This document shows positions 15,808 through 56,379 of a DNA stretch of 64,000 nucleotides, piece by piece. Both the position numbers and the translations under genes were made by a program. The stretch is from Xiphophorus maculatus. Its lineage: Eukaryota > Chordata > Actinopteri > Cyprinodontiformes > Poeciliidae. Each line of letters begins with the position of its first letter. Positions within the stretch are counted from its first letter, which is position 1. The notes under the pieces were generated by a model. That model made no database searches. It saw only the letters and a program-made list of their open reading frames with translations, and was not told the DNA's origin. The stretch spans positions 24,906,501 to 24,970,500 of the forward strand of contig NC_036447.1 in NCBI RefSeq assembly GCF_002775205.1. The letters run 5' to 3'.

Positions 15808-16744
15808 TCAGTTAAAACCATGAGGACGTTTCTTCTCGATCAGATCACAGTTTAAATTGGACAGAGGTTTGTTTGTGCTCTGAAGTTTGTAGACAACCTC
15901 ACAAGGAAGTTTGTTGTGCTTTGAGCTTTCCTTTATTTCTGTTACTCTAAAAACTTCGTACGGAGGGATCAGGACTTCGTTTTCTGATTTAGTGCTAGAG
16001 TATTTTGAGATGTCTGCTCCAAAACAGGTGGAGATCTCAAAGCATGACTGGGTACCAAACTCTTCATTAGCATAGTTACCCATCGAACTGGAGGAAAAAG
16101 CGCCAAGACGAATCTCTTTGTTGAGAACATTTTTGCTGAATTTGCATTTTGTTCTCCGGAAAACGGTGACACAGTTTCCTGCTTTGGGTTTGATGGTGCG
16201 CAGGGCCATGGTGAGGTAGAAGTGCAGAGTGTGATACAGGAATTTGGTTTTGTACACAGATTTTTGTGTTCGGGTTGCGTTGTTGAAATCATAGTATAGC
16301 GGTGGGACGTTCAGGGTGTACGCGTACAGAGCCATGATTTGTTCCTTCTTCAGCGGCAGGTTATTCGTCCATTTACTGTAATATTTCTCAGCTTTATTCC
16401 AGGCCTGTTTGAAGTTCTTATTTTTGTTTATCTCATTTTGTAAAAATGTCTTTATTTTTTTCTCTTGGTCATTTTCACATTTGTCGTACATGTCATCCAC
16501 AGACTCTGGAGCCATATCCAGTTGGATTGGGCAATCCGGCAAAGTTTTACATTTCTGCCAAAATTAAGCAAAAACAAAAAGAAACACATTACTGATTACT
16601 AGTGTTTATGTTCAGCATGTGTGAATCTACAACATTTAAATAAACAAGTAAATTTTTCTTCACCTTCTTCAACTTCGCTTGTGGAGCCCCAAGACAAGGT
16701 CCAAATAACATAAACACAGCCACAAAAATGATCAACTTTGACAT
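15808..16744 (-). CDS. ART B: secreted NAD(P)(+)-arginine ADP-ribosyltransferase
   Basis: Exon 1 is 16744-16664 (27 codons, signal peptide MSKLIIFVAVFMLFGPCLGA). It ends AAGAAG|GTGAAG and joins in phase 0, after a 109-bp intron, to exon 2 at 16554-15808, giving 275 aa. The ART domain shows SVDDMYDKC, the arginine in TVFRRTK, the EIRLGAFSSSS segment and ENEVLIPPYE with ExE intact, so arginine-specific transferase activity is plausible. The C-terminus (RPHGFN) is short and polar, with no GPI or membrane signal. A pyrimidine-rich acceptor at about 16764 in front of the ATG suggests a non-coding first exon. AATAAA lies just past the stop (about 15790). Closest relative in the window is ART C. Confidence 0.92.
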
Positions 16745-22220: not shown

Positions 22221-23166
22221 TCAGTTAAAACCACGCAGACGTTTTCTCCTGACTAGAGTACAGTTTAAATTGGAATGAGGTTTGTTTGTGCTCTGCAGCT
22301 TGTAGACGACCTCACAAGGAAGTTTGTTGTTGTCAGCGGCTTTCTTTATTTCTGTTACTTTAAAAACTTCGTAGGGAGGGATCAGGACTTCTTTTTCTGA
22401 TTTAATGCTAGAGTACTCTGAGATGTTTGCTCCAAAACAGGTGGAGATCTCAAAGCATGACTGGCTACCAAATATTTTCTCGCAAGGATAGTTACCCATC
22501 GAACTGGAGGAAAAAGCGCCAAGACGAATCTCTTTGTTGAGAACATCTTTGCTGAATTTGCAGTTTGTTCTCCGGAAAACAGTGACACAGTTTCCTGCTT
22601 TGGGTTTGATGGCGCGCAGGGCCATGGTGAGGTAGAAGTGCAGAGTGTGAAACGGGAATTTGATTTCGTACACAGATTTTTGTTTTCGTACTGCGTTGTT
22701 GAATTCGCGGTACAGCGGTGGGACGTTCAGGGTGTATGCATAAAGAGCCATGATTTGTTCCTTCTTCAGCGGCGGGTTATCCGCCCAATTCTTGTTGTAG
22801 TATTTCTCTGCACTATCCCAGGCCTGTTTGAAGTCCTTATTTTTGTTTTTCTCATTTTGTAAAAATGTCTCCGCTATTATTCTCTCCATGTCATTTTCGC
22901 ATTTGTCGTACATGTCATCCACAGAGTTTGGAGCCATATTCAGTTGGATTGGACGATGAATCCAGCTTTTTAATTTTTGCCAAAGCTAAACAGAAACACG
23001 AAAGAAACATGTTATTGAATATTACGTCCGTGTTGAGCATGTGTGGATGTAAAGCAAATAAGCAATAAAATAAAACATTCCTCACCGTCTTCAAATTCTC
23101 CACTGGCGTCCCAACACAGGATGCAAATAGCACGAAGACAGCCACCCAGATTACCAACCGTGCCAT
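22221..23166 (-). CDS. ART C: secreted NAD(P)(+)-arginine ADP-ribosyltransferase
   Basis: Exon 1 is 23166-23086 (27 codons, signal peptide MARLVIWVAVFVLFASCVG), donor AAGACG|GTGAGG. Exon 2 is 22985-22221 after acceptor TGTTTAG. The join is phase 0 and the protein is 281 aa. The ART domain shows SVDDMYDKC, the arginine in TVFRRTN, EIRLGAFSSSS and EKEVLIPPYE with ExE intact. The C-terminus RRKRLRGFN has no membrane or GPI signal. An acceptor (GTTGTCAG) about 20 bp before the ATG suggests a non-coding first exon. AATAAA is 11 bp past the stop. The coding exons and both flanks are paralogous to ART B, so the pair arose by tandem duplication of a module of several kilobases. Confidence 0.92.
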
Positions 23167-33349: not shown

Positions 33350-33670
33350 ACCAAATCTCATTATTTCTCAAGGTGATTTACACTCAGGGGTTCTGGTCGG
33401 GTCCTGAAACTGGTAAACGGACATGGTGGAGCACAGAGAGAGAAATGATTGAACTCCATCAAAACTATGAGGAAACTGAAGCTCCCCGCCTTTCCTCAGA
33501 ACTGATCTGGATCAGAACCAGTTCAGCAGCATCTGAATCAGCCAATCAGCAGTGGAGTTTCCTCCCCCTCTGTGTGTCTCTGCCGATTCCAGTAGAAACG
33601 GTGATCTGGTGTCAGAGGTGATCCACCGTTGGGATCTGATGGAAGCCTCTCTGTGTGTTCTGAGAGGAAG

Positions 33671-33710
33671 ATGATGATGAAGATGATGATGATGATGATC
33701 CTCCTGCTCG
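33671..33710 (+). other. Signal-peptide exon made of an ATG repeat
   Basis: [13 protein letters not shown] followed by G|GTAAGA. The leader is encoded mainly by a trinucleotide ATG array. Joined to 35217 it reads ...[12 protein letters not shown], a plausible cleavable signal. Translation could begin at any of several Met codons. Confidence 0.7.
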
Positions 33711-36700
33711 GTAAGATCACCTTCCTCTCTCTGCTCCTCATCCTCTCCAGTCTCTCTGCAAGCTGCTGATCAGCCTCAGAGCTTCTTGGTTCTGGTCCAT
33801 TCTTCTCTCTAACTGACCCCTGGTGACCTCACCTGGTTGTTGGTTCTGGATCAGAACCTCAGGTTCTGGTTCCAGGGACTCGTCTCTCACCAGTCTTCCC
33901 AGTAGATCTCACTGGTTTACCCTTCCATCCAACCAGTGGCTCCACTTTCCTGTTTCCTGTCTGGATTTAATTTCTCTGGTTCGGGTTCAGCAGCTGATCT
34001 GGTTCTGATGTTTTCTATCAGTTTCTATCAGGTTGTAGTTCTGTCAGCATCAGAACCACCGAGACCCATACAGACCAGTAATCTGGACATTAGCTCCCAG
34101 AAACATTAACCTCAGAAACCAGTGATGAATGTTTGCAGATGTTGAAGGTTCTGGTTTTCCTTCCTGTCTTCAGTTTTCCACATAAATGTTCATTTGAATC
34201 CAAGATGGCCGCCTGGGTGGTTGTAGTTTGTAGTTTATTTCTCCTGAATTCACCTCAGTCTCACAGGTTGGTGGTCATAATGTTCTGCTGATGATGCATG
34301 ATGGTGGTCTGACCATAAATGGAGAATCAGGTTCTGGTGGGTCCGGTTCTTCCCTGGTTTACTGGTTTTATAAAAAACAAACCTAATCCATGGATGATAT
34401 TCAGAATGTGATTATGAGTTTTTTGTATCACAAACAGCAATTCTTTAATCATTAGGAAAATTGCAACATATTTAGGCCAACATGTTCAACTAATCCTTGA
34501 TCCTTTAACAAATATCTGGAATGTATTTATGACTGGCCAGAATTACATTTTTAGGTATCTGGTTTAAGGCTGTGTAATTGTGTATAAGCTCCTTTTGAGA
34601 TGACCGCTCACAATGAGGTTCTATTGAAGTAATAAAAAAATATGTAGAATATACAAAAATTTCCAAATTGTTGTTTGATCAACAAAGACGCATCAGTTTC
34701 ACAGCAGAAACTGACTGAAAGTTACTGGAAGGTTTAAATTCTGTAACTATAGAGAATCAGGACCAGAAATCCCAGAAAAATAAGTTTAGAAGAATTTTAG
34801 TTTTCTAAAAAAATCTCTGCCCCAACAATCACCGCACTCCCAAGATACTAAAACAAATATCTTTATCATCAAATCAGTCCATGAGATAAAACACAACCTG
34901 AAAACTGACAGCAGGATTTCTGCAAATAACCACAAACAGCAGCAACTCTAAAAAAAAAAAAACACATTCATGATTTTTGACTTTCATCTGTTTCAATCTT
35001 TCAGTTTTTAAATTTTAACAGTTATTTTAATGCACTTTTATCAGTTTTATGACATATTGCTTAATGTGAGTTACATATTACATGAACAGAGATCATTGCT
35101 GCCCAAAAAAGAGTTCAGTATCACTGAGCTGTTTAGCAGACAGGCTGAAATCTTTTATCACTAGTGAATAACTGATCATTATTTCTACACACTAAACCCT
35201 CGTCTTGTTTCCTCAGTTTCCCAGCATGCTCTGGGTGGAGTGGTGGAGGTGAATGAGGGGGCGGAGCCTGTCCTGCTGCCCTGCATTTACTCTGATAATC
35301 CACTTAAAGATCCGTTACTCACCTGGACTCGCAGTGATCTCAGTCCTAACTCGGTCCACCTACGGAGAGAATTTGGTGACGATCTTAAAAACCAGAACCA
35401 GCGTTTCAGAAACCGGACCTCCATGAATCCTGACGCTCTGGACACTGGAAACTTCAGCCTGACTCTGAGGAAACCTCAGCAGTCTGATGGAGGAAACTAC
35501 ACCTGCAGCATCTCTAATGGAAGACAAGAACTGAACCTGAAACAGGTTCACCTGAAGGTCAAAGGTCAGATAAAGATAAAGCAGCACACCCTATTTTAAA
35601 GTTCTATTCTGTGAATGAATTTGTTGAAATAAGAAAATTAATAATTGTTCATAGTTCCTGTAACCATGGAGACAGTGACGTGTGGTGAAGTACATAGTTG
35701 GTGAGGCACTGACTTAATCCGATTTATATAGACATCATGTATGTTACTGTTTACATAAGGAAATTCTGCGCATGCATACAGTGCAGTAGTCAGCTGGAAG
35801 TCTCCATAACTAAACTCAGTCACTATTTTAGTCTTTCATTAACAGTAAAGCAGTCGGCTCTTTAATGACAGCAGCTTTATTGAAACACATTCATGTAAAT
35901 ATCAGATAAAAATAAAACATAAAATGAATTAGATAAATATTCAGCATCATTTTACGACTTCTTCAAAAGACTTTATATTAAGATTATAAAACATCATTTA
36001 TCATAACCTTTTTCACTTTTTACGCTATTATTTATTTTCTGATGATCATTGGCCAGCTGTCTAAACTGAACATTTACAGGATGAATCTCCAGGAATAATT
36101 TGTGTTTCTCATCTTCAGCCTCCACAGAACAAACAGGTTTTGTAGATCTGCTGTGTATAGATCAAACCCCTCTGATGCATCAGAGGGGTTTGATCTATAC
36201 ACAGCAAAACGTTTCTGATTTTATGTTGATCATTAAAGAAATGATTTTTCTCCCTGCAGACAGAAACTGAATGATGACATCAAACCAGAAAATGATCCAA
36301 ACTGTTTCTGCTCATTTTGTTCTTTATTTCCTCTCAGTCGATCAGCAGGAGGTCGAGATCACTGAGGGGTCAGATTCTGTCGTCCTGCCCTGCAGTACAT
36401 CATCCCGCCTTCCGGAGGACACATCAGTGGAGTGGACCCGGTCAGAACCGGAATTTATGATGGTTCACTCAAGCAGCAGCCAAAGAAAGCAGGACGGTTT
36501 TTACCGCGACCGAACAGAGATGAACAAAGACTTCCTGAGGACCGGAGACGTCAGCCTGACCCTGAGGAATCCCAGAGACAGAGACGATGGACGCTACGTC
36601 TGCACCGTCTACAGAGACCAGGACGTCCTGAGACACACTGTCGTTCTGAAATATGTAAACAAAGGTCAGAGCATCAGGTCAGAGCTGCTGATGAAGGTCA

Positions 36701-39700
36701 AAGGTCACAGTGAAGTCAATCTTTCTCTGTTTTTCCACAGAACCCTTTCCATCCTGGGCCACAGCTGTGCTGGTTCTGCTGGTTCTGGTTCTCATCATCT
36801 CTGCAGGCTGTTTATATCATTTTAAAGATTATTTCCTGCCAGGTGAGTCTGAATGTTTCTGGCCCAGAATGCCGTTAGACATCATGTGACCTGTTCTGGG
36901 GGTCAGACGTTGACGGTTCATCTTGTCATCAGTTCAGATCTTTCTGTTCATTCATGTTCAGATCAAATGCAGCGTAGTTAGAAACATCATGAACAGAGCC
37001 AGAACCAGCAGCTGTCTCTCTGCTCTCTGGATCTTTACTGATCTGTGGTTCTTGGTGACTGTTGGACTCCAGACGACTGAACTACAATCTGAAAGCTGGA
37101 CGTCCAGGAACCAGGAAGGAGGATCCACATGAGAGCAGATAGATCACCATGACAATCTGACCTCTAAACCTGCTCTGGAGCAGCGTTAGCTCTTATCAAA
37201 TCACATGTTAATCCTCAGAATATTCAGCGACAGGTTTTATTTCTACATTGACCAGATTCAGTTTTGATGAAGAAAATATTTTTATTAACACTCAGAAAGT
37301 TTCATCAAACAGAAAATCGTAGCTTCTCTGCTGGTTAAATCTCATGGAAATAAATATTAGGTTGGAGTTTCCAATAAAATATCTCATTACTATCAGAACC
37401 AAGCAGCGCCACCAGCAGGATGGAAACACCAACAACTCCTGACTGAATTCATGTAGCTGCTCTAGTCCAGGTTATTAGAACAGAACATTTCAGCAGCGAG
37501 GCAGTTCAAAGGTCATAATAAAAACATCATACAGTCACCAGTTTTGAAACAAACATTTGGTCAAATCAAAATCGTCATTAAAGATGTTGATCAATGTTTC
37601 ATTTATTGTTAATCAAAGCAATTCTGACCAGCTGGGTTTATAGATTTAAATACACTCAGTGTTTCAGCGGTTTCCAGTTTTCTGGAAGTTTGTTCCAGAT
37701 TTATGGTGCATAGAAGCTGAATGCTGCTTCTCTGTGATTGGTTCTGGTTCTGGATGTAGAGCAGAACCAGAACCAGCAAGTTGATCCAACAGCTGCAGAT
37801 CTTTAATCTGTTCAGTGATTTATAAACTACCAGCAGGATTTAATGCCTATTCCTCTCAGTGAAGGACTGTAGAACCGGGCGGTGCAGCAGTGGGTGGCGT
37901 AGAAGTGAGTGGTGTAGAACCGGGAGGTGTCTCTATCCTCCTGGTTTTAGTCAGAACTCCGGCAGCAGCGTTCTGGACCGTTGGTTTGTCAGTCAGACCT
38001 GTGAAGACAATGCTGAAGGAATCAAAGCCACTAAAAAGATACGCCTGGATGAGTTTTTCTGATCTGAGACTTTAGTCCTCTGGTCCTGGAAATGTTCTGC
38101 AGCTGGTAGAAGGCCCACTTTGGAACTGAAGAGTCAGGTCAGAGGTCAGTCTGATCTTTGGTTTCTAGCTGGATGAACTGAAGCTCTGGGTTCACTCTAG
38201 ATCTATGACTCCAGATTATTCTTTATGGCCATTGTGAGATCCAATGTTTGGATGTTTTATTAGTTACTAATAAAATTAAATAAAGTAGAAGAGGGCAACT
38301 AAGCATAATAGAATTCACCAATTTAAAGCAAAACTCAGCTTCTTCTGGGCAAAATGAGCAAACAGAAAATGTCTGAAGTAATAAAATACACATATTATTC
38401 TTCTTAAACACAAATAGACTGTATCTTACCAGTCTGATGGTCATAAATACCACATAAACTAGCTACAAACACAACTTCAACCGATCTGCACTGATTCCTG
38501 AACATTATTTCACATCTGAACAAAACATTACTCACAAAGTGGCTTTGCCCCCTAGTGGCGAAGCTAGAAACTACAATTCAGTCCTGCCTTCAGAACAGGT
38601 ACATCCCCCCAAACTGCCTTGGGGATGTAACACTGCTGTAGGATTTTTCTCTCTGACTTGAATGTCTCAGTTAGAAGGAAACATTTCCACCAGAAACACC
38701 TTCATGGTCTCTGACCTGATGAGTACACCCCGGTCCAGGAGGAACTCTGTTCGTCCGTCCGTTCGTCTGTCAGTCTCATTTTGTCCTCTGTTGTCTCTCA
38801 GCTGCACTGGAGGTGAATTCAGGGGTTAAGTCTGTCCTGCTGCCCTGCAAAACCAAAGTCTACCTACCTAGAGGCGCTAGAGTGGAGTGGAGGGACGGAG
38901 AGAACAAGATGGTCCATGTGTATCCGAACGGTTGTGATGATCCTGAAGAACAGAACCTGACCAGCAGCAACAGAACCAGGATGAATGACGACCTACTGAA
39001 GACTAAAGACCTCAGTCTGACTCTGGAACGTCCCTCAGTTGCAGACAGCGGGATCTACACCTGCAGAGTCAGGAAACGAGTCATCCTGATGATGAAACGG
39101 GTTCATCTCCAGGTCAAAGGTCAGTGGTATAAATGTTGGATTTATATGCATCAGTCGCTGTTGTGGATCAGCTGCAGATGAAGGGAACCATCAGTCTGTT
39201 ATCAACAGCTGTTGATGTTCAGTTTCACCTCAAACAGCTGACTGTCTAGTGAGGTTACTACAGGTTCAGCTCATCAAGCTGCACTTTACCAAGATCTCTG
39301 CATGCTGCAGCACAGCATCATCCCTGGCCTCCATAGAGCGGATCTCTGCTGAATAAAGACCTCCAGACTCTGAGACGCCCTCCAGAAGCCCAGCAGTACT
39401 CTGGGACTCTCACCTCATGATGGAAACAACCCATAAACTTTAACCTTTTCACACACTATGAAGTTTCATGTATCAGCTTCCACTTCAACCATCTATATGG
39501 CCACAGTTCTAAACCAGTCTGTGACTGGAAATCTAGGTCAACCGCAACAAATAAGAAAAATGTTAAATCATCTCACTGTAATCAATAAAAGCAAAATAAT
39601 TCCCATTATAATGAACCAAATGAGTAAATGAATATATAGTAAGAAAAGTTTCACTAAACACCAGATAAACAAAGATAATAATACAATAAGTATATTTAAT

Positions 39701-42700
39701 ATTAATTAAGACAGCATTAATATCACTCAAATTGTTAAAAGATGTGTAAAAGGCATATTCTAAAATGCAGTCCTGAAATAAAAAGATATAAAACCACAAC
39801 AGGTAACAGTGTGTTTTTAGCACATACCTATAATCTACAGCAGTGTGGGACACACTCAGCCAGCGGGCATGACGTAGGCAGATCCTGTACACTGTCCTAG
39901 AAAGACGTTTTGGAGGGAAAATCTCAGAGAAACTTCATAAAAGCAAAAACATTTGACTCTAACCAAACCCAAACTCTTTAAATCAACTTAGTAACAGTTG
40001 ACGTTACATTTTTATGCAACACAAAAGCAGTAAAAAGTATTTATATGTTATAAACATTACTGAGGGGGAGATAGCATTAGCACACATTTTACCAGCAGCT
40101 TCTGTTGGGCTGCTGCAGCTACGTCACTGAAACATGCCTTGTGCAACATCAGTGAAGGAGCTTTCCTTCTCGCCTCATAGCCACACATCACGCTGGTTTT
40201 ATTTTATCATATTATTTTTCCGGTTACATGATCCATCAAACCATGTCAAATGCTTTGATTACTTAATCGGAGTTATTTCCCGCAGCTGTGTGGAGATCTG
40301 AAAAACTCGTTCCATAAAGCTCGGAAACCAAAACTGTTTTTGTGGCGGTCATTAAAAACGCATCAGATTGTTGCTATGGTAACCAAACAATCTAACTATG
40401 AAGATTGTTTGTTGAACTTTTTCAAAGTAAACATGCCAGCTTCTTAAAATCTTACATTTAAATGTTAAATAATTTAAAATCTTTGAATTTATGTATGCTG
40501 AAACCATTAAATCAAATTGAGGAGCATTGATAATCTCAATAAACAAATATTACATTTCTATATCTATGGTCTGTGTTAAATTTTTTAAATGTTACCATTT
40601 ATGGGGCCCCTGAATGCCTGGGGGGTCTTATGGACTCAATTTGGATTTAACAGAAGTGCAAATAATTGATATTCATTTTAATAAATTTTTTTTCATTTGT
40701 TGTTTTTAAGACTCGATAGCTGTGGTTTTAAATAGCATTTCACTGGCGATGTTTTCCTGTAACATATAATTATTCAGTAATATTTTTACATTTCCTGTCA
40801 ACTTAACATCTTTTAATATAAAAACACAGTGGAGCGCCTCGGCGCCCCAACCGCTGGGCTGAGCAAGATTTCTGGGGGAAACTCTGGAAATAAAATGACC
40901 TCAGCTACATACTCCCTGCTAAACTTCTCAAAACAGTAACAGGTCAGAAGTGACATACAAGGCAACATTAGTTAAACTCAGCTATGTTTTCCTAACAATC
41001 ACTGTGCAACTAAGGGTTTCTATGTTTCAATAGAAAGTGACATTAAGGAGTTGGCCAGACTTTTAATGTTTTGTCTACACGTTCTCAAATTGATTGCCAA
41101 ATAACTGTTACCTGAACACAAAAATCACTCTGCTCTTTGGTCAAAGCATCATGTACTGCTGATACTGCAGATACTTCACAGTCAGATAGAGACTGAGTCT
41201 CTAGTTCACTCAATGGGGCTGCATCCTGAAGGTTTTGGTGGTTGACAAAAGAAGATTACAGACTATACTACAGACTACAGACTTTGTAGGCTGACCAGGG
41301 CCGGCCCAAGCCTCAATGGGGCCCTAAGCGAAATTTGGTTTTGGGGCCCTTTGTTCCTGCTAACAATGTGGACAGGCTGCAATCAACAGTTAGAATATTA
41401 AATCATTCGCACACCTGCTATAAACTTATTGCATCTCTGATGGTGCTGTTTACATTATATCCTATGCATGTATAATATAAGATACATTTATCGGCCAGTT
41501 GATTTCTGAGTGCCAATTTCCTTAATTTTGGGGGATCGGTGATCGGCCGATACGTACTAGTGGAACCCATTTTATCCCCTGATCTTATTTTCGTCAGCAA
41601 AGGCTTAAAAATCAGCCTCTGTCCTCGTCTGCTCTACAGTCAGAGGTTTGACTGACAGACCGGCCCACCAGGTCAGGTCTGAATGTTTACAGTTAACAAT
41701 ATTCACCCCACTGTTGCCAAATCACTGACTTTCTTAATTCTTAATTTTCTATTAGCAGCTTCACAAATCTCTTTTATAAATATTACATTAAAACAAACCT
41801 TTATCTTGGCTTTTTTCTATTATTCCTCTTTTCTTTCTCCCTGAAGGATAAGTCCTTTTTTGAGACATTGTTTTGCCAACTTATCTTCTGACCGAAGCTT
41901 TGGACGTCTGGATGCTCTCTGCACATTGCACGGCAGCTCATGTTACCGACAAAGCGTGCGGTACCTACCGCGACCACCACGAGTCCCCAAGAGCATTTTT
42001 TTTTTCGTTTTGTCCATAAAATAATGATTTCTACATACATTGTCAAATATATTGTAAAAACAAATCACTTCATGATGAAATTGTGTGTTTTTGTTATTGT
42101 GATGACATAGAAATCGTTATTAAAAAAGAAATCAGCTCCACTGTGGGGGCCCCTTGGTGGCCCTGGGGCCTTTAGCGGCTGCTTAGTTTGCTTATGCCTT
42201 GGGCCGGCCCTGAGACTGATGTTGGAATAACTTTTATTGAATTTTCTCTAATTGTTGAATTATCTTTCCTTCATAGAAGTTTATGAAGAAGAACCAAACT
42301 GGCCACTTTATTAGTCCAGTTACGTGTTAGAATATTGCAAATTGTTTTTATTTTGTTTGTTTTTCTTTCTTTTTTCAGATATTGTTGGTCAGTATCAGCC
42401 TGACCTTAAAGAGTCTCTGAAGATGAAGTTCCAGAATCTCTCTGAAGGCGTCGCTGAACCTGGAAATCAAACCGTTCTGAACCAGATCTACACAGAGCTC
42501 CACATCACAGAGGGATTAACTAGAGAGGTCAACCAGGAACATGAGGTCAGACAAATTGAAACAGCATCCAGGAAACAAGAAACAATCAGACGAGAAGACA
42601 TCTTTAAAGTCCCACCTGGAAGAGACCAACCAATCAGAACAGTGATGACCATGGGAGTGGCTGGCATTGGGAAAACACTGTTAACACAGAAGTTCACTCT

Positions 42701-45700
42701 GGACTGGGCTGAAGGCAAAACCAACCAGAACATTGATTTTATATTTCCATTCACTTTCAGAGAGCTGAATATGTTGAAAGAAGAAAAGTTCAGCTTATTA
42801 GGACTGATTCATAAATTCTTCACTAAAACCAAAGAAATCAGCAGCTTTGAAACTTTACAGGTTCTGTTCATCTTTGATGGTCTGGATGAGAGTCGACTTT
42901 GTCTGAATTTCAAGAACAATCTGATCCTGAATGATGTTACAGAGTCCAGCTCATTGGATGTTCTGCTGACAAACCTCATCAGGGGGACACTACTTCCCTC
43001 TGCTCTCCTGTGGATAACTACACGACCTTCAGCAGCCAATCAGATCCCTGCTGAGTTCACCGACATGGTAACAGAGGTCATAGGGTTCACCGACCCCCAG
43101 AAGGAGGAGTACTTCAGGAAGAGATTCATAAATGATGAAGAGAAGGCCAACAGGATCATCTCTCACATCCAGAAATCAAAAAGTCTCCACGTCATGTGTC
43201 ACATCCCAGTTTTCTGCTGGATCACTGCTAATGTTATGGAGGATGTGATGAAGACCAGAGAGGGAGGAGAGCTGCCCAAGACCCTGACTGAGATGTACAT
43301 AGACTTCCTGGAGGTTCACCTCAAAATCAAGGAGGACAAATATTTTGGAAAAGCTGAAGAAGATCCAGAGAACAGGAGGCTGATTGAGTCTCTAGGAAGA
43401 CTGGCTTTTGATCAGCTTCTGAAGGGAAACCTGATCTTCTATGACAAAGAGCTTGAAAAGTGTGGCGTTGACATCAAAGATGCTGCGTTGTTCTCAGGAG
43501 TGTTCACTGAGATGTTTAAAAGAGAGAAAGGGACGTGTGACATCTCAGTCTACTCCTTTATTCATCTGAGCATCCAGGAGTTTCTGGCTGCAGTCTACAT
43601 GCTCCACTGTTTCACCAGCAGGAAGTCAGAGGTGATCAAGACGTTCCTGGGAGAAGAATACAATGAAACATCTCTAGATGAGTTCATGAAGAAAGTCATG
43701 GAGAAATCCCTCAGCAGTAAAAATGGCCACCTGGACCTGTTTGTCTGCTTCCTTCATGGTCTCACTGTGGAGTCCAACCAGAGCCTCTTAGGAAGCCCGC
43801 TGGGTCAGACAGAGAACAGTCCAGAAACCATCCAGAGAATCATCACCAACCTGAAGGAGATGAACACTAATAGAATCTCTCCTGACCAGTATATAATGTC
43901 AACTGATAGAATGTCTCCTGAAAGAAGCATCAACATCTTCTACTGTCTGGTGGAGATGAAAGACGTCTCATTTTATCAGGAGATCCAACGGCTGCTGGAT
44001 TCAGGGAAGAAGCTCTCAGTGACTGACTGTTCAGCTCTGGCTTTCATGCTGCAGATGTCAGAGGTTCTGGATGAGTTGGACCTGGAGAAGTACAACACAT
44101 CAGAAGCAGGACGACGGAGACTGCTTCCAGCTGTGAGGAACTGCAGAAAGGCTCAGTGAGTCCAGATGTTTTCATTGTGTGAATGCTGATTCAGAACTAT
44201 TGTCCTCCTGTTTCTTCTTCTTCTTTTCTCATTCTGCTGGCATTCATTTTACTATGTGTCAGGCTGTGTGCAGCCACTCAGCTGGAAACGGATCATATAA
44301 AGTCTTTAGAGCAGATGTTTACCACTGGTTTCCTTGGAGGTAGATGTTTTTGGTAACTACCTCATATATATCAACCCCTCTTCCAGTGTTGGCCCATTGT
44401 AATATCATCTGTATTAAAAGCAAATATGCACGACCTCATGTTGTGTTTAGTCTGAAAGAATAAGTGTGAAATTGAGCTTTAAGAGTTTGGACCTAAACCA
44501 GTCAAAGAAAAGGACTGCTGTAATGTTTTTTAATTTAATTGGATTAATATGTTGAGAAGTTTCATCCAGTATACCAGAACCTGGACTTTAATCAGGAACT
44601 GCACAGATTCTCTGTGGGGTCAAACTCAGTAAATTGAAGATCAGATGATGACATCACTGTTATCATACAGTATTTAGTCCAGATTGATTTCATTAGAACT
44701 GACTTTATTTCTTCTCTAATCACAGACTTGGTGAATTTTCACTCCAAAACGATGATGTTAAAGTTGTGGCCTCAGCTCTGAAGTCCAACCCAGATCTGAC
44801 TGAACTGGAAATAAGTCAGATCTACATACTGGGAGATGAAACCTTTGGAGACTCTGATATGAAACCTCTGATTAAGATCCTGGAGACTTCAGTCAGTAAA
44901 GTGAAGAATCTGGGGTTTGTTTTCTCTATTTATTCAATAAAATCATTCATTGATTCTTCAATCATTAGCTTAATTAATAAGTTAATTTAATATATTTTCT
45001 TTTTTTAAAATCTGTTTAAATGTCAGAATAAAATCTCAAAAACATTTGACCTTATAAAGGAATTATTTTCTTATTTCTGACTTTGAAATTATTTAACTTT
45101 GTTTTTCAGTTTTTCTGATTTTAAAATGTTTTTGACTGATGAACAAAAATGAGTAAAATAATTCAAATGATGTAAATTAATGATGGAGATGTTTCAGTTT
45201 GGTTTGGTAAAGATTCAGATTGTTTTATTTCTTATTTCTGATTCTCATCTTTACATCCAGAATGAAATGTTTTTCCTCCAGAGTCGAGCCACAAACACTG
45301 ACAGGTTCAAATCATCATTAATGACCAAATCTAAGAAATGACTGATTGTAGAAAAGCAAATCTAGATGAAATGAATGAACATCAGGTTTGCAGCAGCAGC
45401 AGGTTCCTCAGCCTTGTCCTGAAGCTGTGGTTCTGTTGGGCCGGGTCAGAGAGGAACCGTCCTCTTCAGTCTGACAGCTGTCGGTCGGTTGGAGCCTTGT
45501 CTGTGATGATGCTTCATCAGGTCACGTCTCCTTAGGAAATAATGGCCTCCATTGGCTTTCAGCAGCTTTAATAAGAGCCCAAGGCCATTAATGAAGAAAC
45601 TGAGTGGTTCTGATCCAGTTACCAAGTCGGGTCTCCAGCTGGTTATCAGGAACGAGCAGAAATAGCTCAACTCATCCAGGCTGCCGCTCATAGAAAACTT

Positions 45701-48700
45701 TGAGTTTCTTTTTTTGATCAAATGTTCTGGTTCTGCTGGTTTGGTCTCTTTAAACCAGTTTGACTGGATCAGATGTTAGAATCAGTTCATCATGTTTCTT
45801 TTACATTCAGGGAAATTAATATTCTACATTATTATTATTATTTATTTGTTCATCTTTCGGTTTTAACCTGCATCCTGTTGGCTTCAGCTCACATCTTTTA
45901 TTCTTTATTCAGATTGAGGGACTGCAGTTTGTCAAAGATCAGCTGGACTTCTCTGTACTCAGCTCTGAAGTCCAACCCGACTCATCTGACAGAACTGGAG
46001 CTGAGCAAAACCAACCTGGAAGGTTCTGGAATGAAGGAGCTCTGTGGTTTTCTACAGACTGAAGGCTGCAGACTGAAGACATTGGCGTATGTAATTATAT
46101 AATTGTTGATATTTCTGTGAATAATTAGATATAATTGATCATAAATGAAAGTTTAAATCTTCTGTTCTAATAAATATTTTCTGAGTTTGTTCTTGGACTT
46201 GAATCCAGAGTTTAATTTAGTCCCTCTGTGTAACTGAGTTGGACCTGCTGATCTGAGGTCAGAACAGGACAGCATTCGGACCCCCAGTGTGTAGAAATCC
46301 CCCTCATGTATAGCAGGTCAAAGGTCAAGATGCAAAAAGAGAGAGAATGAAATCTCCCTTTATTGAAGTTGCACAAATCCCACACTTAGTTTTAAATATT
46401 CTGCTATTTGTTCATAATCATCCAGTCCAGGTTTAAAGAGTCTAGGTGTTTTCATTTTAACTAGAGTAGATTAAAGATGCTGATAGTAATGAAACATTGG
46501 GTGGAATCGCCCTTTATCCATTTCCTGAATCAGAAGCTGCAATCAGAAACCAACTTCAGCTTTGTCTGAAAAATTCCAGATAACTGAGTTTTTCTCTGAG
46601 CTCAACAGGCTGCAGGTTCTTCAGGACATGAGTATTCTGCTCCCAGACATCAGAACCAGCAAACACTGCAGCACATGAATCTGAAGCAGGTGTGCTAGGA
46701 GAGGTTCTCCACATGCTCAGACTAAAGGTTCACAGTCTGACAGAGATGGACAGAGAAAGTAGACTAACTCTGGATGAAATGGTTCCTAGAAACAGGGAAG
46801 CTTTCTGGGGACTTGGCTGCCTGCTCATATGGAGCTGCAGCACATGAAGGAGTTTTATGCTGGCAAAACAAAATGGAAGCAAGTGATGAGTTTCCATTTT
46901 AGTGTCAATTCCACTAATGGAGCAAACTCCAAGTCAGTCATCCTCCAAACCACTGAGAGCAGCTTCCAGAGGAAAATCTGAGTTTGTTCTGACAGTCAGA
47001 CTCTATCAGGTTGACCACAGTCTTCTGGCAGAGTTCCAGGACATTAAGGAGACATAAATAATATAAAGATAATTAATTAACAGTCCTGCGGTAAATACTG
47101 ACTTTGTGAAGGTTATGGTGTTAAAGTCATTTTGTTCAAACATCTTGATTCAGCTCTTATTTTGTAGGACAGGAAATGAGATCTTACCTTTGTAATGCTT
47201 TGTATGCAACAGGGTTCAGCGGTTCACTGAAATCATTCTCGTGTGGTTTACCTGGAAAATAGATATAAAAATGACTCATCTGCACCTTCCTGTTTTTCCT
47301 TTATGATAATGTTCCCATTTATGCAGCCGTCTCTGCTGAAGGATTCAGAACTTGAACTAAATGACCCACATCAATCTCACACAGAAAAGGCTAAATATTT
47401 TCTAGTTGATAGTTCGGTAACTGAATCAGCACAAAATGAGAAAATGATCAACTTTCAGAATGTGAGCTGTAATGGATATTGTAAAACGCTGAATTAGACA
47501 GATTGAAATAAACCTGTTTACATCTGTCATACATAGCAATGAGCTGCAGTTAAAATACAACCAGCAAGAAAACCTAATTAATAGATTAATTAACAAAAAC
47601 TGGAGACATAAAATATCTCTGTTGATAAATGATGGTACAGAGCAGTCAGCCTGTAAGGAAACATGGAGAGAGAAAAAAAAACATCCGACTGAGTTTAAGA
47701 TCCTGAGAAACTTTTAGAAAAACTTTGAGTTTCTTTTTTGATCAAATGTTCTGATTCTGCTGGTTTGGTCTCTTTAAACCAGTTTGACTGGATCAGATGT
47801 TAGAATCAGTTCATCATGTTTCTTTTACATTCAGGGAAATTAATATTCTACATTTTTATTATTTATTTGTTTATATTTCAGTTTTAACCTGCATCCTGTT
47901 GGCTTCAGCTCACATCTTTCATTCTTTATTCAGATTGGATGACTGCAGTTTGTCAGAGACCAGCTGGACTTCTCTGTTCTCAGCTCTGAAGTCCAACCCG
48001 ACTCATCTGACAGAACTGGACCTGTACAGAACCAACCTGGAAGGTTCTGGAATGAAGGAGCTCTGTGGTTTTCTACAGACTGAAGGCTGCAAACTGGAGA
48101 CATTGATGTATGTAATTATATAATTGTTGATATTTCTGTGAATAATTAGATATAACTGATCATAAATGAAAGTTTAAATCTTCTGTTCTAATAAATATTT
48201 TCTGAGTTTGTTCTTGGACTTGAATCCAGAGTTTAATTTAGTCCCTCTGTGTAACTGAGTTGGACCTGCTGATCTGAGGTCAGAACAGGACAGCATTCGG
48301 ACCCCCAGTGTGTAGAAATCCCCCTCATGTGAAGCAGGTCAAAGGTCATTCAACCCAGTCTAGAAAAGTGAATTCCAGCTCCTGGAATCCAACAGGAACA
48401 AATCTATAATCAATGATTGATGCTTCAACACTTTGATCAGAACCTGAAATGATTTTACTGACTAAAATCCTCCAACACAACATGACCCAGTATCAGGTTC
48501 TGGTTCTGAAGTCAGCAGGTCTTTATTGAAGCAGCAGCTTGTTGGCATTAATATTCATGAGAATCTTTAACTGGTTCTGTTGGACTGGTTAACCTGCGTC
48601 CTGTTGGCTTCAGCTCACATCTTTTATTCTTTATTCAGATTGAACTGGTGCAGGTTGTCAAAGATCAGCTGTGATTATTTGGCCTCAGCTCTGAAGTCCA

Positions 48701-49257
48701 ACAGCCTCCAGCTGACAGAACTGAACCTGAGAGGAAACAACCTGAAGGAGTCAGATGTTCAACAGCTGAAAGAGCTTGTAAAGACTGTATGGTAAGTAAA
48801 TGTTTGTAAAGAGTCCAGCTGCTGTCAGCATATTGAACTAAACCCAGTTAGCCTCACAGCAACGCTCCAGTGTTCCCAGTAAAGCTGCAGCTTCTCAGTG
48901 GGAGGAGAATGGTTCAGGCTTCCTGGTTGGACACAGAGACAGCAATCAGCCAATCAGAGGAGCAGCAGCTTGCTGTGTTCCCGTGTTGGTGTGAAGATGA
49001 GTGTTGTTGCTGTGTCCATGTCTCCAGGAAGTCCAGCTGGACTCCAGCGTCCAGCCATCCAACATGTTTAGAGACAGTGGTCCTCATTCAACAGGAAACA
49101 ACCGATCAGGTTCATCTTGATCACAGCTCTGAGATCAGTCTGACTGCAGCCTGGAAACCATCTACTGGATGTGCTGCGTCACTGACTGCTGCTGGAGAGA
49201 GGCTGGAAACACTCACTGATCTGCTCTCTCCTTCCTTCTCTCTGCAGGTGGGACTGA
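33671..49257 (+). CDS. Putative Ig(V)-Ig(V)-TM-Ig(V)-FISNA-NACHT-LRR receptor (NLRC3-like fusion)
   Basis: Exons: 33671-33710, 35217-35564, 36338-36664, 36741-36842, 38802-39119, 42379-44155, 44726-44914, 45913-46086, 47934-48107, 48639-48791, 49248-49257. They sum to 3612 nt, with no stop before the final TGA (1203 aa). Junctions up to the NACHT exon are all phase 1 and those after it are all phase 2. Order: signal peptide, two V-set Ig domains, TM helix, third V-set domain, FISNA, NACHT, about four LRR blocks, end. In the NLR-C family the NACHT-LRR part is a cytosolic sensor. Here a secretory leader and Ig domains would make it a membrane receptor. Phase compatibility does not prove one transcript; an Ig receptor gene followed by a separate NLR gene is the main alternative. 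No B30.2 exon follows. Poly(A) signal at 49440. Confidence 0.55.
35217..35564 (+). other. Ig V-set exon 1
   Basis: 116 codons, phase 1-1. The B-strand cysteine is in EPVLLPC and the F-strand cysteine in SDGGNYTC, with tryptophan in LLTWTRSD and the [16 protein letters not shown] core. This is a butyrophilin/B7-like V-set pattern. N-glycosylation sequons occur at NRT and NYT. Confidence 0.85.
35669..36010. other. Possible hAT-like fragment in the intron after Ig exon 1
   Basis: CAGTGACGTGTGG followed by GGTGAGGCACTGAC resembles the end of a common fish hAT family. The opposite end was not found. Confidence 0.25.
36149..36206. repeat. 58-bp perfect palindrome
   Basis: 29-bp arms meet with no spacer at 36177/36178 (around CTGATG|CATCAG). 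Lies in the intron before Ig exon 2. Confidence 0.97.
36338..36664 (+). other. Ig V-set exon 2
   Basis: 109 codons, phase 1-1. Core: [36 protein letters not shown]. Closely related to the exon at 35217. Confidence 0.87.
36741..36842 (+). other. Transmembrane exon
   Basis: 34 codons, phase 1-1: a short lead (EPFPSWAT), a hydrophobic run [17 protein letters not shown], then YHFKDYFLP with a positive cytosolic side. Its symmetric phase means it can be skipped without breaking the frame. Confidence 0.8.
37655..37850 (-). mobile_element. LINE ORF2 C-terminal fragment
   Basis: Same family as 960-1216: TTCTGGAAGTTTGTTCCAGA, GGTGCATAGAAGCTGAATGC and TTCAGTGATTTATAAACTA appear in the same order. Lies in the intron between the TM exon and Ig exon 3. 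Confidence 0.7.
38802..39119 (+). other. Ig V-set exon 3
   Basis: 106 codons, phase 1-1. Core: [35 protein letters not shown]. Lies after the TM exon, which is odd for an Ig domain unless the TM exon and this exon are alternatives. Confidence 0.85.
39120..41295. other. Intron sequence between Ig exon 3 and NACHT exon (left part)
   Basis: No further Ig, TM or N-terminal NLR exon recognised. 40580-40630 holds a GGGGCCCCTGAATGCC fragment that matches 26115-26185 in inverted orientation. An X-box-like GTTGCTATGGTAAC lies at about 40371. Confidence 0.5.
41296..42212. mobile_element. hAT-like non-autonomous element
   Basis: Exact 15-bp inverted ends CAGGGCCGGCCCAAG (41296-41310) and CTTGGGCCGGCCCTG (42198-42212). 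Flanking octamers AGGCTGAC and AGACTGAT agree at 6 of 8 positions, which fits an aged 8-bp hAT target duplication. No transposase inside. It sits 167 bp before the NACHT exon. Confidence 0.75.
42379..44155 (+). CDS. FISNA-NACHT exon of NLRC3-like gene
   Basis: Large exon (1777 nt) with acceptor TTTTTTCAG and donor GCTCA|GTGAGT. It begins [20 protein letters not shown] (FISNA-type linker; FISNA is fish-specific NACHT-associated). Walker A GVAGIGKT is at about 42654-42677, Walker [10 protein letters not shown] at about 42865-42890 and the sensor region [10 protein letters not shown] at about 43010. The winged-helix and helical domains run to RNCRKAQ. The length and motif set match complete teleost NLR-C NACHT exons, and no stop or frameshift is present, so nucleotide binding looks intact. 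If the NLR is a gene separate from the Ig exons, its start exon was not found. Confidence 0.93.
45693..46318 (+). repeat. Duplicated LRR-exon segment, copy 1
   Basis: Matches 47719-48346 over about 625 bp, covering intron, LRR exon and intron, with few differences. Confidence 0.9.
46319..47718. other. Intron between duplicated LRR exons
   Basis: No exon recognised. It lies between the two copies and was not duplicated with them. Confidence 0.4.
47719..48346 (+). repeat. Duplicated LRR-exon segment, copy 2
   Basis: See 45693-46318. The copies are offset by about 2.03 kb and non-coding and coding parts are about equally similar, so the event is recent. Confidence 0.9.
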
Positions 49258-49439: not shown

Positions 49440-49445
49440 AATAAA
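49440..49445 (+). terminator. Poly(A) signal of the NLR gene
   Basis: AATAAA about 180 bp beyond the TGA that ends the last short exon. Confidence 0.7.
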
Positions 49446-52303: not shown

Positions 52304-53488
52304 TTACAGGCTGTAATGGGATTGGATAGTGCTGTGCGAATTTGAAACTCTGCCAGCTGATCTGATTCTACGATAAAGCTTCACAATAACACAGAGCAGT
52401 AAAAGCGACAGAAGGACAAAATAAATTATGGTGAAAATGAGCCAAAATCCCTCCACAGGTAATGCAGATATGGACTGCAACTGGTTGCGCTCTTTGTCAT
52501 AAACACAGTTCAAATTACTTGTGAGTTTATAAGTGATTTCACATGAACTGGTTTGTTTCTGGATGTCAGTGACTGTAAAAACTTCATACGGAGGAATCAC
52601 CACTTGATTATTCCCTTTAAGGACGGAGTATTTAGTTATGTTTGCTCCAAAGCAAGAGTATATCTCAAAACATGAAACATTTCCATTAAAATCCCACTCA
52701 TCAGAGCCTAAAATGAAGGTGCTGAACCGAACCTGGCCAGTGGAGATGTTGAGCTCCAAAACGGTTTCGGTTCTGTAGTTTGTACTCAAACACATCACCT
52801 GATTTTGTTTTAAAATTAGAATCGCCTCACTTAGAGAGGAATAAAGGGAGATGGGTTCGAAAGCGGCCCTTTGCTTCGGAGTTCTTTCTGCAGGTTCAGA
52901 GTTCTTGTTCCCCTGTTTCAGCACCACATCAGTGAACATGTATAAAGCCAGAGAATGGCTTTTCTCCATGTACTTTTCTGCTGGTTCTTTCAGGTTTTGC
53001 TCTGCTTTGCTCCAGGCTTTGCTGAAATTTGCACTGCAGGTGTGCCATTTCTGTTCCATGGCCTCATCATTCAGAACCTCGACTTCGGTTCTGCAGCCAG
53101 CAAACTTGTCGTCATCGAGGTCAGAGGTCAGATGTCGAGAACTCTTAAAAAGCACAGGAGAAAAATGCTTCGAGAGTGCTCACACATGTGGAGAACTGTT
53201 GCACATTTTCATTTTAAAAATGGTCAAAAACAATCAGACAAAGGCTTGTGTGATAGCTTAAAAACACACGTCAGGCTCTTGAATTTTAAATTCCACGTCG
53301 GTCATTTGATATTTATGATAATTTGCAGTTTAAAGTATGATTGGGTAACTGTGACTTACCTCTCCAACAGTGTCCCTCCAACTGAGACACATATATATGA
53401 CAAAAGCTACAAGCAGTCCTTCTAAAAACAACAAAGAAGCAGTCACACATGCAGACACCTTCTGTTGCCTTTTCAGAGATGGCATCAT
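52304..53488 (-). CDS. ART D: membrane ADP-ribosyltransferase-like pseudoenzyme
   Basis: Exon 1 is 53488-53360 (43 codons, GGAGAG|GTAAGT). Exon 2 is 53143-52304 after acceptor TTTTTAAG. Phase 0, 322 aa. Exon 1 encodes MMPSLKRQQK then a hydrophobic run (VTASLLFLEGLLVAFVIYM) that looks like a signal anchor. The ART fold is clear (LDDDKFAGC, NYRTET, CFEIYSCFGANITKYS, PPYEVFTV). The serine segment is altered (RFSTFILGS), and the ExE position reads NNQ in NNQVVIPPYE, so both catalytic acids are gone. A C-terminal helix (LIFTIIYFVLLSLLLLCVI) with basic KLYRR after it gives a second membrane anchor. Likely a catalytically dead ART, as mammalian ART3/ART4 are thought to be. It lies head-to-head with ART E. 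Confidence 0.85.
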
Positions 53489-54461: not shown

Positions 54462-56379
54462 ATGACATTTTGGTGGGAATCAACGCGTGGGATTAAACTC
54501 TTGAGAAACCTGGTTTCTCTTTGCGGACTGTTGCTGCTCCTGGTCCTGGTCCTGTTGTATAATGGCCCGTTTCTAATCCTGTGGTGGCACCAGAGGTCTG
54601 CCGAGGTGAGATTATTTTGTTTTCCTTAAATAAACCAAAAGCTAAGAAGCAGTTTACTACAGTTCCTTGCAAAAGTATTTAGACACATCAAACCTTTTCA
54701 CATTTTATCATGTCACAATTACAAATTTCCTTATATTTTATTTGGGTTTTAATGTGCCAAGACAAAGAAAGCATCATTAATTGGATGAAATTAGAGTAAA
54801 ACTTTTCGGGCGGGGGAGCAGCATTACATTATGGATATGTTTTTTTATTATAAAATATGGTGACTAAACTCAGTGAGATTGGAAGGATACCAGCTATGAG
54901 TTGTGGATGTTTAATGTTGGTGTCCTGACTCAAGTCTTTCGCAGCCTGCAACAGGTTTTCTTCCACTACTGTCTGTTCTGCCCCATGCAAGTTACACTAA
55001 CAGTTTAGAGCTCCCTCTGGTGGTTGTGTTTTTTTTTTTTACATATTTGTTTAAACTCTCCATGTTGTGACTAGTTGGCTCATGTATTCTAGTGGCGGAG
55101 AAACAACTTCCTGTTACCTCCGTCTTTGGTGGTCATGCTAACTAGCTTTAGCATTCATGGTGACCTCTGTTGTGGTGTAGCAAATATTATTTCACATATT
55201 ATCTGATACCACACTGTCACGACATAGTGATAGTTTTAACAGATATGTAAAAACATATTTTTTTTTGCCATGTCACCCCTGAAGAAAAGAATTATGATAC
55301 AAGCAGTATGATGCTAGCAGTATGATGCTAGTAGTACTTGTTATGACTCTGTTCTTGTAATTTGATTTTTTATTGTCTTAGTGTTGCCTTAATACTCATA
55401 TTTTCCACAGTAGAAAAATTCCAGGCAATTGAAGAATACAATTATTTTTAATTATTTCCTGAAAGTGTTTCACATGATCAACCATCTCTCATTCCAGAAT
55501 GCTGCAGTCTTACCCCTGGATATGGCTCCAGATTCCATTGACGACATGTATGATGGCTGTCGTTCTAAATCCATGTCTCTCATCAACCTGTATGGTGTGT
55601 TTGAGTGGCAAGTCAACATGAACTTTAGCTACGCCTGGGCTGTAGTCGAGAGAAATGCCAAGAAACCTCTGCACAAGCACCTGCAAGACGATCACGCCAC
55701 GTCCTTGTACATTTTCACAAAACTGGCCAACATCCGAAAGGATTTCAACACGGCCGTGAAAACGGGAAAACACAAGTACAGCACGGACGGCTTCATGTTT
55801 CATTTTCTGTATTTCTACTTGACCGATGCCATTCAAGCCCTGAATCCGAACCACTCAGAGTGCCGAACCGTTTACCTCAGAACTTGGAAACGGTTCGAGC
55901 GGGATATCGTCAACACAAACGTCCGCTTTGGGGGATTCACCTGGGCAATCTCAAGCAAGCAGTCATCTAAGGTCAAAGGCAACGTCTCCTGTTTTGAGAT
56001 CCAAACGTGTTTCGGTGCTGACATCACGCATTACTCCAGCGTAAACCAGAGGGGACAGGTGCTCATTCCAACCTATGAGGTTTTCCGGGTCACGGACGTT
56101 GTTACGGGCGACCCGTGGTGCGGCGTGGTCTACAAGCTTCAGAGCACCAAGAAACCAAAAGCAGACCAAAACTGCAAACTGAGTCAGGAGCTGACAAAAT
56201 CCCTTTTGGGTGGAGGATTTTTAAACTGGGGTGGAGGCAACACTGTGACCATGTCAGCATGCGCTGCGCTGCTAATGATAAACTCTTTCATTCTCGTGAA
56301 ACGCAAACAGAAAAGCTACGTGGCTGTTGTGTTGGGTGCTGTGATCGTCCTGATGGTTTTCATGTTATTGCTTATTTAA
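54462..56379 (+). CDS. ART E: multi-pass or hairpin-anchored ADP-ribosyltransferase-like pseudoenzyme
   Basis: Exon 1 is 54462-54605 (48 codons, GCCGAG|GTGAGA). Exon 2 is 55498-56379 after acceptor CATTCCAG. Phase 0, 341 aa. Exon 1 encodes MTFWWESTRGIKLLRN followed by a long hydrophobic run ([20 protein letters not shown]), a signal anchor. The ART domain is clear (DMAPDSIDDMYDGC, VYLRTW, CFEIQTCFGADITHYSS). The serine region reads GFTWAISSK, and the ExE site reads RGQ in QRGQVLIPTYE, so the catalytic glutamates are lost. The C-terminus has two hydrophobic stretches (MSACAALLMINSFILV and VAVVLGAVIVLMVFMLLLI) split by KRKQK. A GPI-signal role for the last one is possible. An upstream in-frame ATG at 54264 lies across a probable 5' UTR intron and is less likely. 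Confidence 0.85.

Follow-up and report, generated by a model that had tools for sequence, protein, structure and literature searches.

A probable fused gene of immunoglobulin V-set and NLR exons, with eight copies of its Ig exons in the genome of Xiphophorus maculatus

Exon structure of the locus

We have analysed a stretch of 64,000 nucleotides from Xiphophorus maculatus, which we call the window. It contains eleven exons on the forward strand, separated in all cases by GT...AG introns; this model was recomputed from the letters and agrees with an earlier note on the same DNA. Once spliced, the exons give 3612 nt, which translate into 1203 amino acids and a single terminal stop, with no internal stops. 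The introns have phase 1 after each of exons 1–5 and phase 2 after each of exons 6–10, also as previously described.

Exon 1 (33671–33710) contains the start codon and a probable signal peptide: hydropathy in this region has a peak of 1.86 at residues 5–23. It is preceded on the same strand by a flank which is probably the 5′ UTR (33460–33670) and matches the C6 and C24 copies discussed below. Exons 2 (35217–35564) and 3 (36338–36664) each code for an Ig V-set domain, Ig1 and Ig2 respectively. Exon 4 (36741–36842) codes for a transmembrane segment (TM), whose hydropathy of 2.87 is the maximum of the protein. On its 3′ side exon 5 (38802–39119) has a third V-set domain, Ig3 (E 2.9e-8). A transposon-like insertion with 15-nt perfect terminal inverted repeats, to which no strand is assigned, is found in the next intron (41296–42212). 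The large exon 6 (42379–44155) codes for FISNA, NACHT, winged helix and HD2, with a Walker A motif (GVAGIGKT) and a Walker B motif. It is followed by an LRR region in exon 7 (44726–44914) and by LRRs in exons 8 (45913–46086), 9 (47934–48107) and 10 (48639–48791); exon 9 with its flanks is a 96% near-copy of exon 8. The coding sequence ends with the stop in exon 11 (49248–49257), and a poly(A) signal AATAAA is present 183 nt past it (49440–49445, forward strand). Exons 7, 8 and 9 have donors with low scores in a simple weight matrix.

In the eleven-exon product Pfam finds V-set in three stretches (2.3e-30), FISNA (1.8e-24), NACHT (1.1e-30), NOD2_WH (1.1e-12), NLRC4_HD2 (1.2e-29) and LRR_6 (1.4e-7), and no B30.2. 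The second half has the features of fish NLR-C genes: FISNA lies immediately before NACHT on a single large exon, both Walker motifs are present and the C-terminal exons code for LRRs. Rfam and tRNA scans of the whole window gave zero matches.

Eight copies in the genome

The comparison was run across the genome assembly to which the window belongs (704 Mb), where fusion and adjacency can be tested against each other. Exon 1, Ig1, Ig2, TM and Ig3 have eight close copies each, one in the window, which is on C5, and seven on C24; in all these searches a clear gap separates the eight from the next match. The eight Ig sets have identical order and orientation and each of them is upstream of a FISNA-NACHT exon, which rules out a chance adjacency of Ig and NLR exons.

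The exon 1 region is found in the eight units as a DNA match, its letters having been read in the window copy only; positions 33560–33780 match the seven C24 units at 90–94%, one unit in two pieces. The copies of Ig1 have at least 87% identity and those of Ig2 at least 77%, all of them stop-free, with splice sites intact in the two and five copies read, respectively. For the TM exon the copies are at least 91% identical and the splice sites are intact in all seven copies read. An apparent loss of the Ig2 donor in unit U6 was an alignment-edge effect: by eye the phase-1 donor GTCAG is present. Ig3 is bordered by AG and GT in all eight copies; its length varies in the range 315–324 and is always a multiple of three despite indels. 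The acceptor of exon 6 has phase 1 in every unit. As judged by protein matches, Ig1, Ig2, TM, Ig3 and the NACHT exon are without stop or frame break in 8/8 copies. Divergence between copies is 0.061 in Ig3 versus 0.141 in the intron upstream of it.

A tree of NACHT exons gives no support to a monophyletic origin of those linked to Ig: three exons without Ig fall in a clade with units U1 and U4, with support 100, which counts against a single gene. Among the matches listed there is no retrocopy of a fused transcript, and no Ig3 match adjoins a NACHT match. Relatives of NACHT and of Ig1 were also searched for in viral contigs and none was found.

Missing exons in each half

We scored 74 NACHT exons out of 213 first-look candidates. 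Eight have an Ig set and 26 have a CARD match no more than 25 kb upstream, none of them both. Among 54 near-family exons P for this exclusion is 0.003, or 0.09 when the 13 loci whose CARD match carries a stop are disregarded, values to be read bearing in mind that related copies are not independent draws. In the upstream stretches examined, CARD or peptide-repeat exons are present in 11 of 12 loci without Ig versus none of the eight Ig-linked loci; the queries derive from a locus among these 11, and for two Ig-linked loci the stretch covers a part of the interval. In the window the best match in this search has E 0.044, which we judged to be noise.

The unfused V-set family discussed in the next section has a tail exon, for which there are four matches, one on C6, one on C13 and two on C14 (E 1.5e-12, 1.1e-5, 0.0086 and 0.17); a further match was seen in a separate stretch of C14 (L044). 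None is found on C24 or C5, and nothing above noise appeared in the Ig3-NACHT interval or in the rest of the window. Sequence common to the window and all six other intervals compared amounts to 87 nt near the NACHT acceptor, with another 20 nt or so after the Ig3 donor, which leaves scant room for a conserved exon that would end one gene or begin another. Two intervals, L013 and L018, have less than 200 nt in common with that of the window, yet both flanking splice sites are kept. The copies do not have an ATG in common where FISNA begins: three of the eight have Met15. Each half looks incomplete alone, and the halves meet at a phase-1 junction. On the other side, the Ig3-NACHT interval contains six AATAAA and five ATTAAA, which counts against a single gene.

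Unfused V-set relatives

The nearest sequence relatives of exons 1–5 are a V-set family found on C14 (about 20.814–20.828 Mb), C13 (about 14.897–14.907 Mb), C17 (about 14.683–14.690 Mb) and C6, the last as an intronless copy (26.811–26.814 Mb). The order V-set, TM, further V-set is found on C14, C17 and C6; for C13 there is no TM match among the matches listed. The C14 cousin has signal peptide, two Ig, TM and Ig in the same order as the locus, without NACHT. The C6 copy has in one frame a signal peptide, an Ig domain, TM, five Ig domains and a tail. Its start is homologous to that of exon 1, and a 48-nt block of the window (33462–33509) is 90% identical to its 5′ flank. A simple search found no target-site duplication around it; one A10 run is found 832 nt past its stop. 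The family shares with our locus the order of signal peptide, V-set, TM and V-set on phase-1 exons, but it differs by the presence of several V-sets after TM and by a short tail exon (C6, C13, C14) in place of FISNA-NACHT-LRR.

Membrane topology

If exons 1–4 are joined, hydropathy suggests that the product has a signal peptide and a TM. The earlier note had proposed extracellular Ig and intracellular NLR: this agrees with the two V-sets before TM, but not with the third one, which comes after it and in the eleven-exon product is predicted to lie across the membrane, in the cytosol. Ig3 has a cysteine pair, plus an NLT sequon in the eight copies; they make its position after TM odd, which counts against the single-gene reading. 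An AlphaFold model of Ig3 is mostly strands, with low to middling confidence (pLDDT 64, pTM 0.60). The order Ig-TM-Ig recurs in the V-set family and in its intronless C6 copy. Exons 2–5 are all symmetric (phase 1-1), so that isoforms without Ig3 or without TM would remain in frame.

One gene or two

The locus is probably a single fused Ig-NLR gene, a reading to which we give a probability of about 0.78 on the sequence evidence. That the Ig and NLR exons make up one gene, as the earlier note proposed, is well supported by the eight ordered copies, the complementary missing exons (the exclusion of CARD and Ig, the absent tail exon) and the compatible phases. The kept frame of Ig3, the lack of a common ATG where FISNA starts and the Ig-TM-Ig order at the 5′ end of the C14 cousin and of the C6 copy also point to it. 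We propose that the 5′ part of a V-set receptor (signal peptide, Ig1, Ig2, TM, Ig3) was placed before a fish NLR-C body, where it would replace the CARD or peptide-repeat exons of the NLR-C gene; as both partners use phase-1 introns, they would join in frame.

The V-set receptor and the NLR might instead be two neighbouring genes duplicated as a block, with an accidental phase match since both sides have phase 1. Co-duplicated adjacent genes would equally keep order and orientation, which counts against a single gene, and the parts of introns and intervals that units have in common are about 85–93% alike, as expected from a recent duplication of a block. Ig exons usually have phase 1, and by eye the CARD exon of the relatives without Ig also seems to start in this phase. 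However such a receptor would be without a tail exon on both C24 and C5, and the NLR would have neither a common start codon early in exon 6 nor, in the intervals examined, an exon for CARD or repeats; the persistence of both flanking splice sites while the interval varies (L013, L018) is also against it. We consider this explanation improbable. Even less credit is due to the idea that the units are shuffled fragments in decay, which give no working product. NLR clusters contain many fragments, and dN/dS is about 0.9 in Ig3, Ig2 and NACHT: by this measure constraint is weak, which counts against the single-gene reading and, for Ig3 and NACHT, in favour of decay. Against decay stand Ig1, Ig2, TM, Ig3 and the NACHT exon, free of stops and frame breaks in all copies as judged by protein matches, and the Ig3 length differences, which are only multiples of three.

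A further alternative overlaps with the single gene, so that the likelihoods given to both are not exclusive: the symmetric exons may yield several products, the main one either skipping Ig3 (signal peptide-Ig1-Ig2-TM-NACHT-LRR) or ending before the NLR part, with the eleven-exon form as a minor one. Each of exons 2–5 can be skipped in frame, and skipping Ig3 would abolish the topological oddity. We find this rather unlikely, though the likeliest of the three alternatives: Ig3 is open with its splice sites in 8/8 copies, and the intronless C6 copy retains Ig domains after TM.

Possible function

The fused Ig-NLR gene would most likely encode a type I membrane protein, with Ig1 and Ig2 outside, one TM, and Ig3-FISNA-NACHT-LRR inside. 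Ig1-Ig2 would be the putative ligand-binding part, and ligand binding or clustering might lead to NACHT oligomerisation at the membrane. We found no CARD or PYD, so signalling would need other partners. We tentatively suggest, as a possibility with somewhat less than an even chance, a family of vertebrate surface NLRs with a V-set pair outside, TM, an inner V-set and FISNA-NACHT-LRR, in which recognition outside the cell triggers assembly without a cytosolic ligand, CARD or PYD.

Vertebrate NLRs are regarded as cytosolic sensors. If our reading is true, a family of eight copies with an NLR body behind signal peptide, V-sets and TM breaks this rule; it would also parallel a receptor described in a sea cucumber, and would be an example of how fish NLR clusters gain new N-terminal modules by exchange of phase-1 exons.

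Comparison with known systems

The Ig part has CD276 (4.2e-15), VTCN1 and BTN1A1, of the B7/butyrophilin type, among its best sequence matches to solved structures. The likeness is at the domain level: proteins of this type are not known to have an Ig after TM or a NACHT.

In zebrafish NLR-C (NLR-B30.2) genes, as described, FISNA, NACHT, winged helix and helical domain are on one large exon, LRRs are on single exons, and the N-terminal modules, death-fold domains and peptide repeats, are shuffled as exons (PMC4852459). Our locus differs by V-set, TM and V-set exons in place of these modules and has no B30.2 in the eleven-exon model.

The earlier note did not know this architecture as described. 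This holds for vertebrates in the literature searched, but not overall: in the sea cucumber Apostichopus japonicus, AjNLRC4 has two extracellular Ig-type domains, TM and an intracellular NACHT; it is reported to be located in the coelomocyte membrane and to bind microbes by its Ig part (PMC8699970). In both cases Ig domains are N-terminal to TM and NACHT comes after it, here in the eleven-exon model. According to the same source, the echinoderm protein has no LRR, no CARD and no Ig after the first TM, and it has a second TM after NACHT, whereas LRR exons are present in our locus.

Structure of the gene and its surroundings

When the eleven exons found in positions 33671–49257 are spliced, they give 3612 nt of coding sequence, equivalent to 1203 amino acids, and the only stop is the last codon. 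All introns start with GT and end with AG; the phase is 1 after each of exons 1–5 and 2 after each of exons 6–10. The open frame described in the earlier note has thus been rebuilt in full. Pfam detects in the product three V-set domains, FISNA, NACHT, the NOD2 winged helix, NLRC4 HD2 and LRR_6; it detects no CARD or PYD. The highest hydropathy peak corresponds to exon 4 (2.87), the transmembrane (TM) exon, and the second one to the N-terminus (1.86). A point absent from the earlier note is that the third V-set exon (Ig3, exon 5) stands 3' of the TM exon. An LRR exon with its flanking intron is present twice (45691–46327 and 47715–48348, 96% identity), which is a fresh LRR expansion. Between the Ig1 and Ig2 exons (2 and 3) there is a perfect palindrome of 58 nt (36149–36206).

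On both flanks lie open frames that belong to the ecto-ADP-ribosyltransferase family (Pfam ART, from 4.3e-19 to 2.4e-52). There are five of them: 9364–10080, 15811–16563, 22224–22985 and 52307–53179 on the minus strand and 55414–56376 on the plus strand. Two are found inside a repeated block (about 13.6–16.8 kb and 19.2–23.2 kb), with pieces 83–96% alike. Open frames in 4163–4755 (minus strand) resemble by eye a piggyBac-type transposase; Pfam gave no match for the frame 4393–4755 (minus strand).

Copies in the genome

The genome (704,300,149 bases, 101 contigs), in which the window occupies C5:24906501–24970500, was searched exon by exon for the 5' part of the gene. The first exon with its flanks is found in eight places with at least 90% identity (next best 74%, C14), in one of them, U7, as two pieces. 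Eight places are also found for Ig1 (at least 87%; next 67%, C13; best 150 of 224 candidates scored), Ig2 (at least 77%; next 64%, C17; best 150 of 245), TM (at least 91%; next by score 57%, C7) and Ig3 (at least 82%; next 60%, C14; best 150 of 212). All these matches coincide at one set of eight places, the window on C5 and seven on C24, with identical order and strand. A FISNA-NACHT exon follows in all eight, 2.6 to 22 kb past Ig3, always with a phase 1 acceptor. Their protein matches have no stop. Splice sites are intact in all eight copies of Ig3 (315, 318, 321 or 324 nt), and in all copies read of TM (seven; 99 or 102 nt), Ig2 (five) and Ig1 (two); in the seven units outside the window the first exon was placed by DNA match.

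The NACHT exon has at least 79 matches, a lower bound because scoring covered 74 of the 213 first-look candidates. Merging of pieces leaves at least 74 NACHT exons, 50 of them on C24, where the best matches outside the window among scored candidates also lie (up to 89% identity).

One gene or two

A single fused Ig-NLR gene is the best reading of the sequence, with a probability of about 0.78. We favour it over two genes because the NLR half appears to have no start of its own and the Ig half no end of its own, and because little of the Ig3-NACHT interval is common to all those compared and the join has phase 1 on both sides.

Concerning the start, non-Ig relatives have upstream CARD (Pfam 4.9e-16) or peptide-repeat exons. 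With queries drawn from one such locus (L010) they were found in 11 of 12 non-Ig stretches of 10 kb, versus none of the eight Ig-linked ones, window included; two of these eight cover part of their interval, L009 less than half and L020 nearly all of it. Among 74 NACHT exons, 26 have a CARD match within 25 kb upstream, eight have the Ig set (first exon to Ig3) and none has both; this tally used 29 of 46 CARD matches, the other 17 being near none of the 74. For the 54 near-family exons the probability of zero overlap is 0.003; it becomes 0.09 when the 13 loci with a stop in the CARD match are left out. Neither is a clean probability, because the copies are related. An early ATG common to the copies of exon 6 was not found; Met15 is present in three of eight.

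In two cases on C24, L011 with L004 (about 11.71 Mb) and L023 (about 7.02 Mb), the NACHT exon matches that of the window from residue 1, as in Ig-linked units, and the adjoining intron is also common, but the 10 kb upstream contain no Ig exon. In L011 repeat-type exons take their place. These loci resemble recombinants of the two N-terminal types.

As for the end, unfused V-set receptor cousins have a short terminal exon, the tail. Its matches are found on C6 (1.5e-12), C13 (1.1e-5, one TGA) and C14 (0.0086 and 0.17); the genome search gave none on C24 or C5. The Ig3-NACHT interval of the window has 3259 nt, of which 87 nt near the NACHT acceptor are common to all six others compared (L012, L013, L016, L018, L019, L020), and about 20 nt past the Ig3 donor are also common. 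The sequence in common with the window is below 200 nt for L013, for L018 and for L009, which is partial, and between about 1.5 and 2.7 kb for L012, L016, L019 and L020.

Ig domains after the TM

The Ig domain after the TM is not an artefact of adjacency, because relatives on C14, C17 and C6 show the order Ig-TM-Ig. One strand of C14 carries in succession matches to the first exon (20814175), to Ig1 (20815958) and to Ig2 (20816383); next come a TM exon whose splice sites are in phase 1, more V-set matches and finally a match to the tail, which is weak (20828213, E 0.17). The order is also found on C17 (TM E 0.0099) and, more weakly, elsewhere on C14 (TM E 0.098). In C6:26811265–26813502 there is an intact intronless frame of 746 codons. 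It runs from a signal peptide through one V-set and the TM to five Ig3-like domains and a tail, so that Ig stands both before and after the only TM. The simplest explanation is that it was copied from a spliced transcript, as a probable retrogene; a target-site duplication was not found at this copy. Its 5' flank has a block of 48 nt which matches window 33462–33509 at 90%. By comparison with these relatives, FISNA-NACHT-LRR would occupy, in the fused genes, the place of the additional V-set exons and of the tail.

Evolution of the units

In a tree of 12 NACHT 5' parts the eight units are not monophyletic: the non-Ig L003, L004 and L007 group with U1 and U4 (support 100), and the non-Ig L008 is placed next to U7 (support 39). 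For this reason NLR bodies seem to move between N-terminal types, an exchange which has been described for zebrafish NLRs (PMC4852459). Mean dN and dS (Nei-Gojobori) are 0.067 and 0.074 in Ig3 (28 pairs), 0.084 and 0.095 in Ig2 (10 pairs), 0.052 and 0.057 in the NACHT part (28 pairs). Ratios near 0.9 fit either weak constraint or a mixture with diversifying change. Divergence is lower in Ig3 (0.061) than in the intron 5' of it (0.141), but that part of the intron which is closest to Ig3 is equally low.

Predicted product and known systems

The product is most probably a membrane protein of type I, in which the outer V-set pair would bind a ligand and the inner FISNA-NACHT-LRR would oligomerise. 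The earlier note had proposed a receptor with extracellular Ig and intracellular NLR; the fused gene is retained as the best reading, but the third V-set lies past the TM. By this position Ig3 should be cytosolic, in tension with its cysteines and NLT sequon, kept in all eight copies.

The earlier note also knew of no description of such an architecture. This holds for fish and other vertebrates in the literature searched, which was largely open access: no Ig-NLR fusion was found, nor is there any in the parts consulted of the zebrafish NLR paper (PMC4852459), of the article on the round goby genome (PMC6988351) or of a fish NLR review from 2025 (PMC12436146). In a sea cucumber, though, a membrane receptor with Ig, TM and NACHT has been described: AjNLRC4 (PMC8699970) has two Ig-type domains outside, a TM and NACHT inside. 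Unlike the fish product it has no LRR and has a second TM, so the resemblance is one of design rather than of demonstrated kinship. AjNLRC4, which is reported there to bind microbes and to mediate phagocytosis, is the best analogue of the fish Ig-NLR product.
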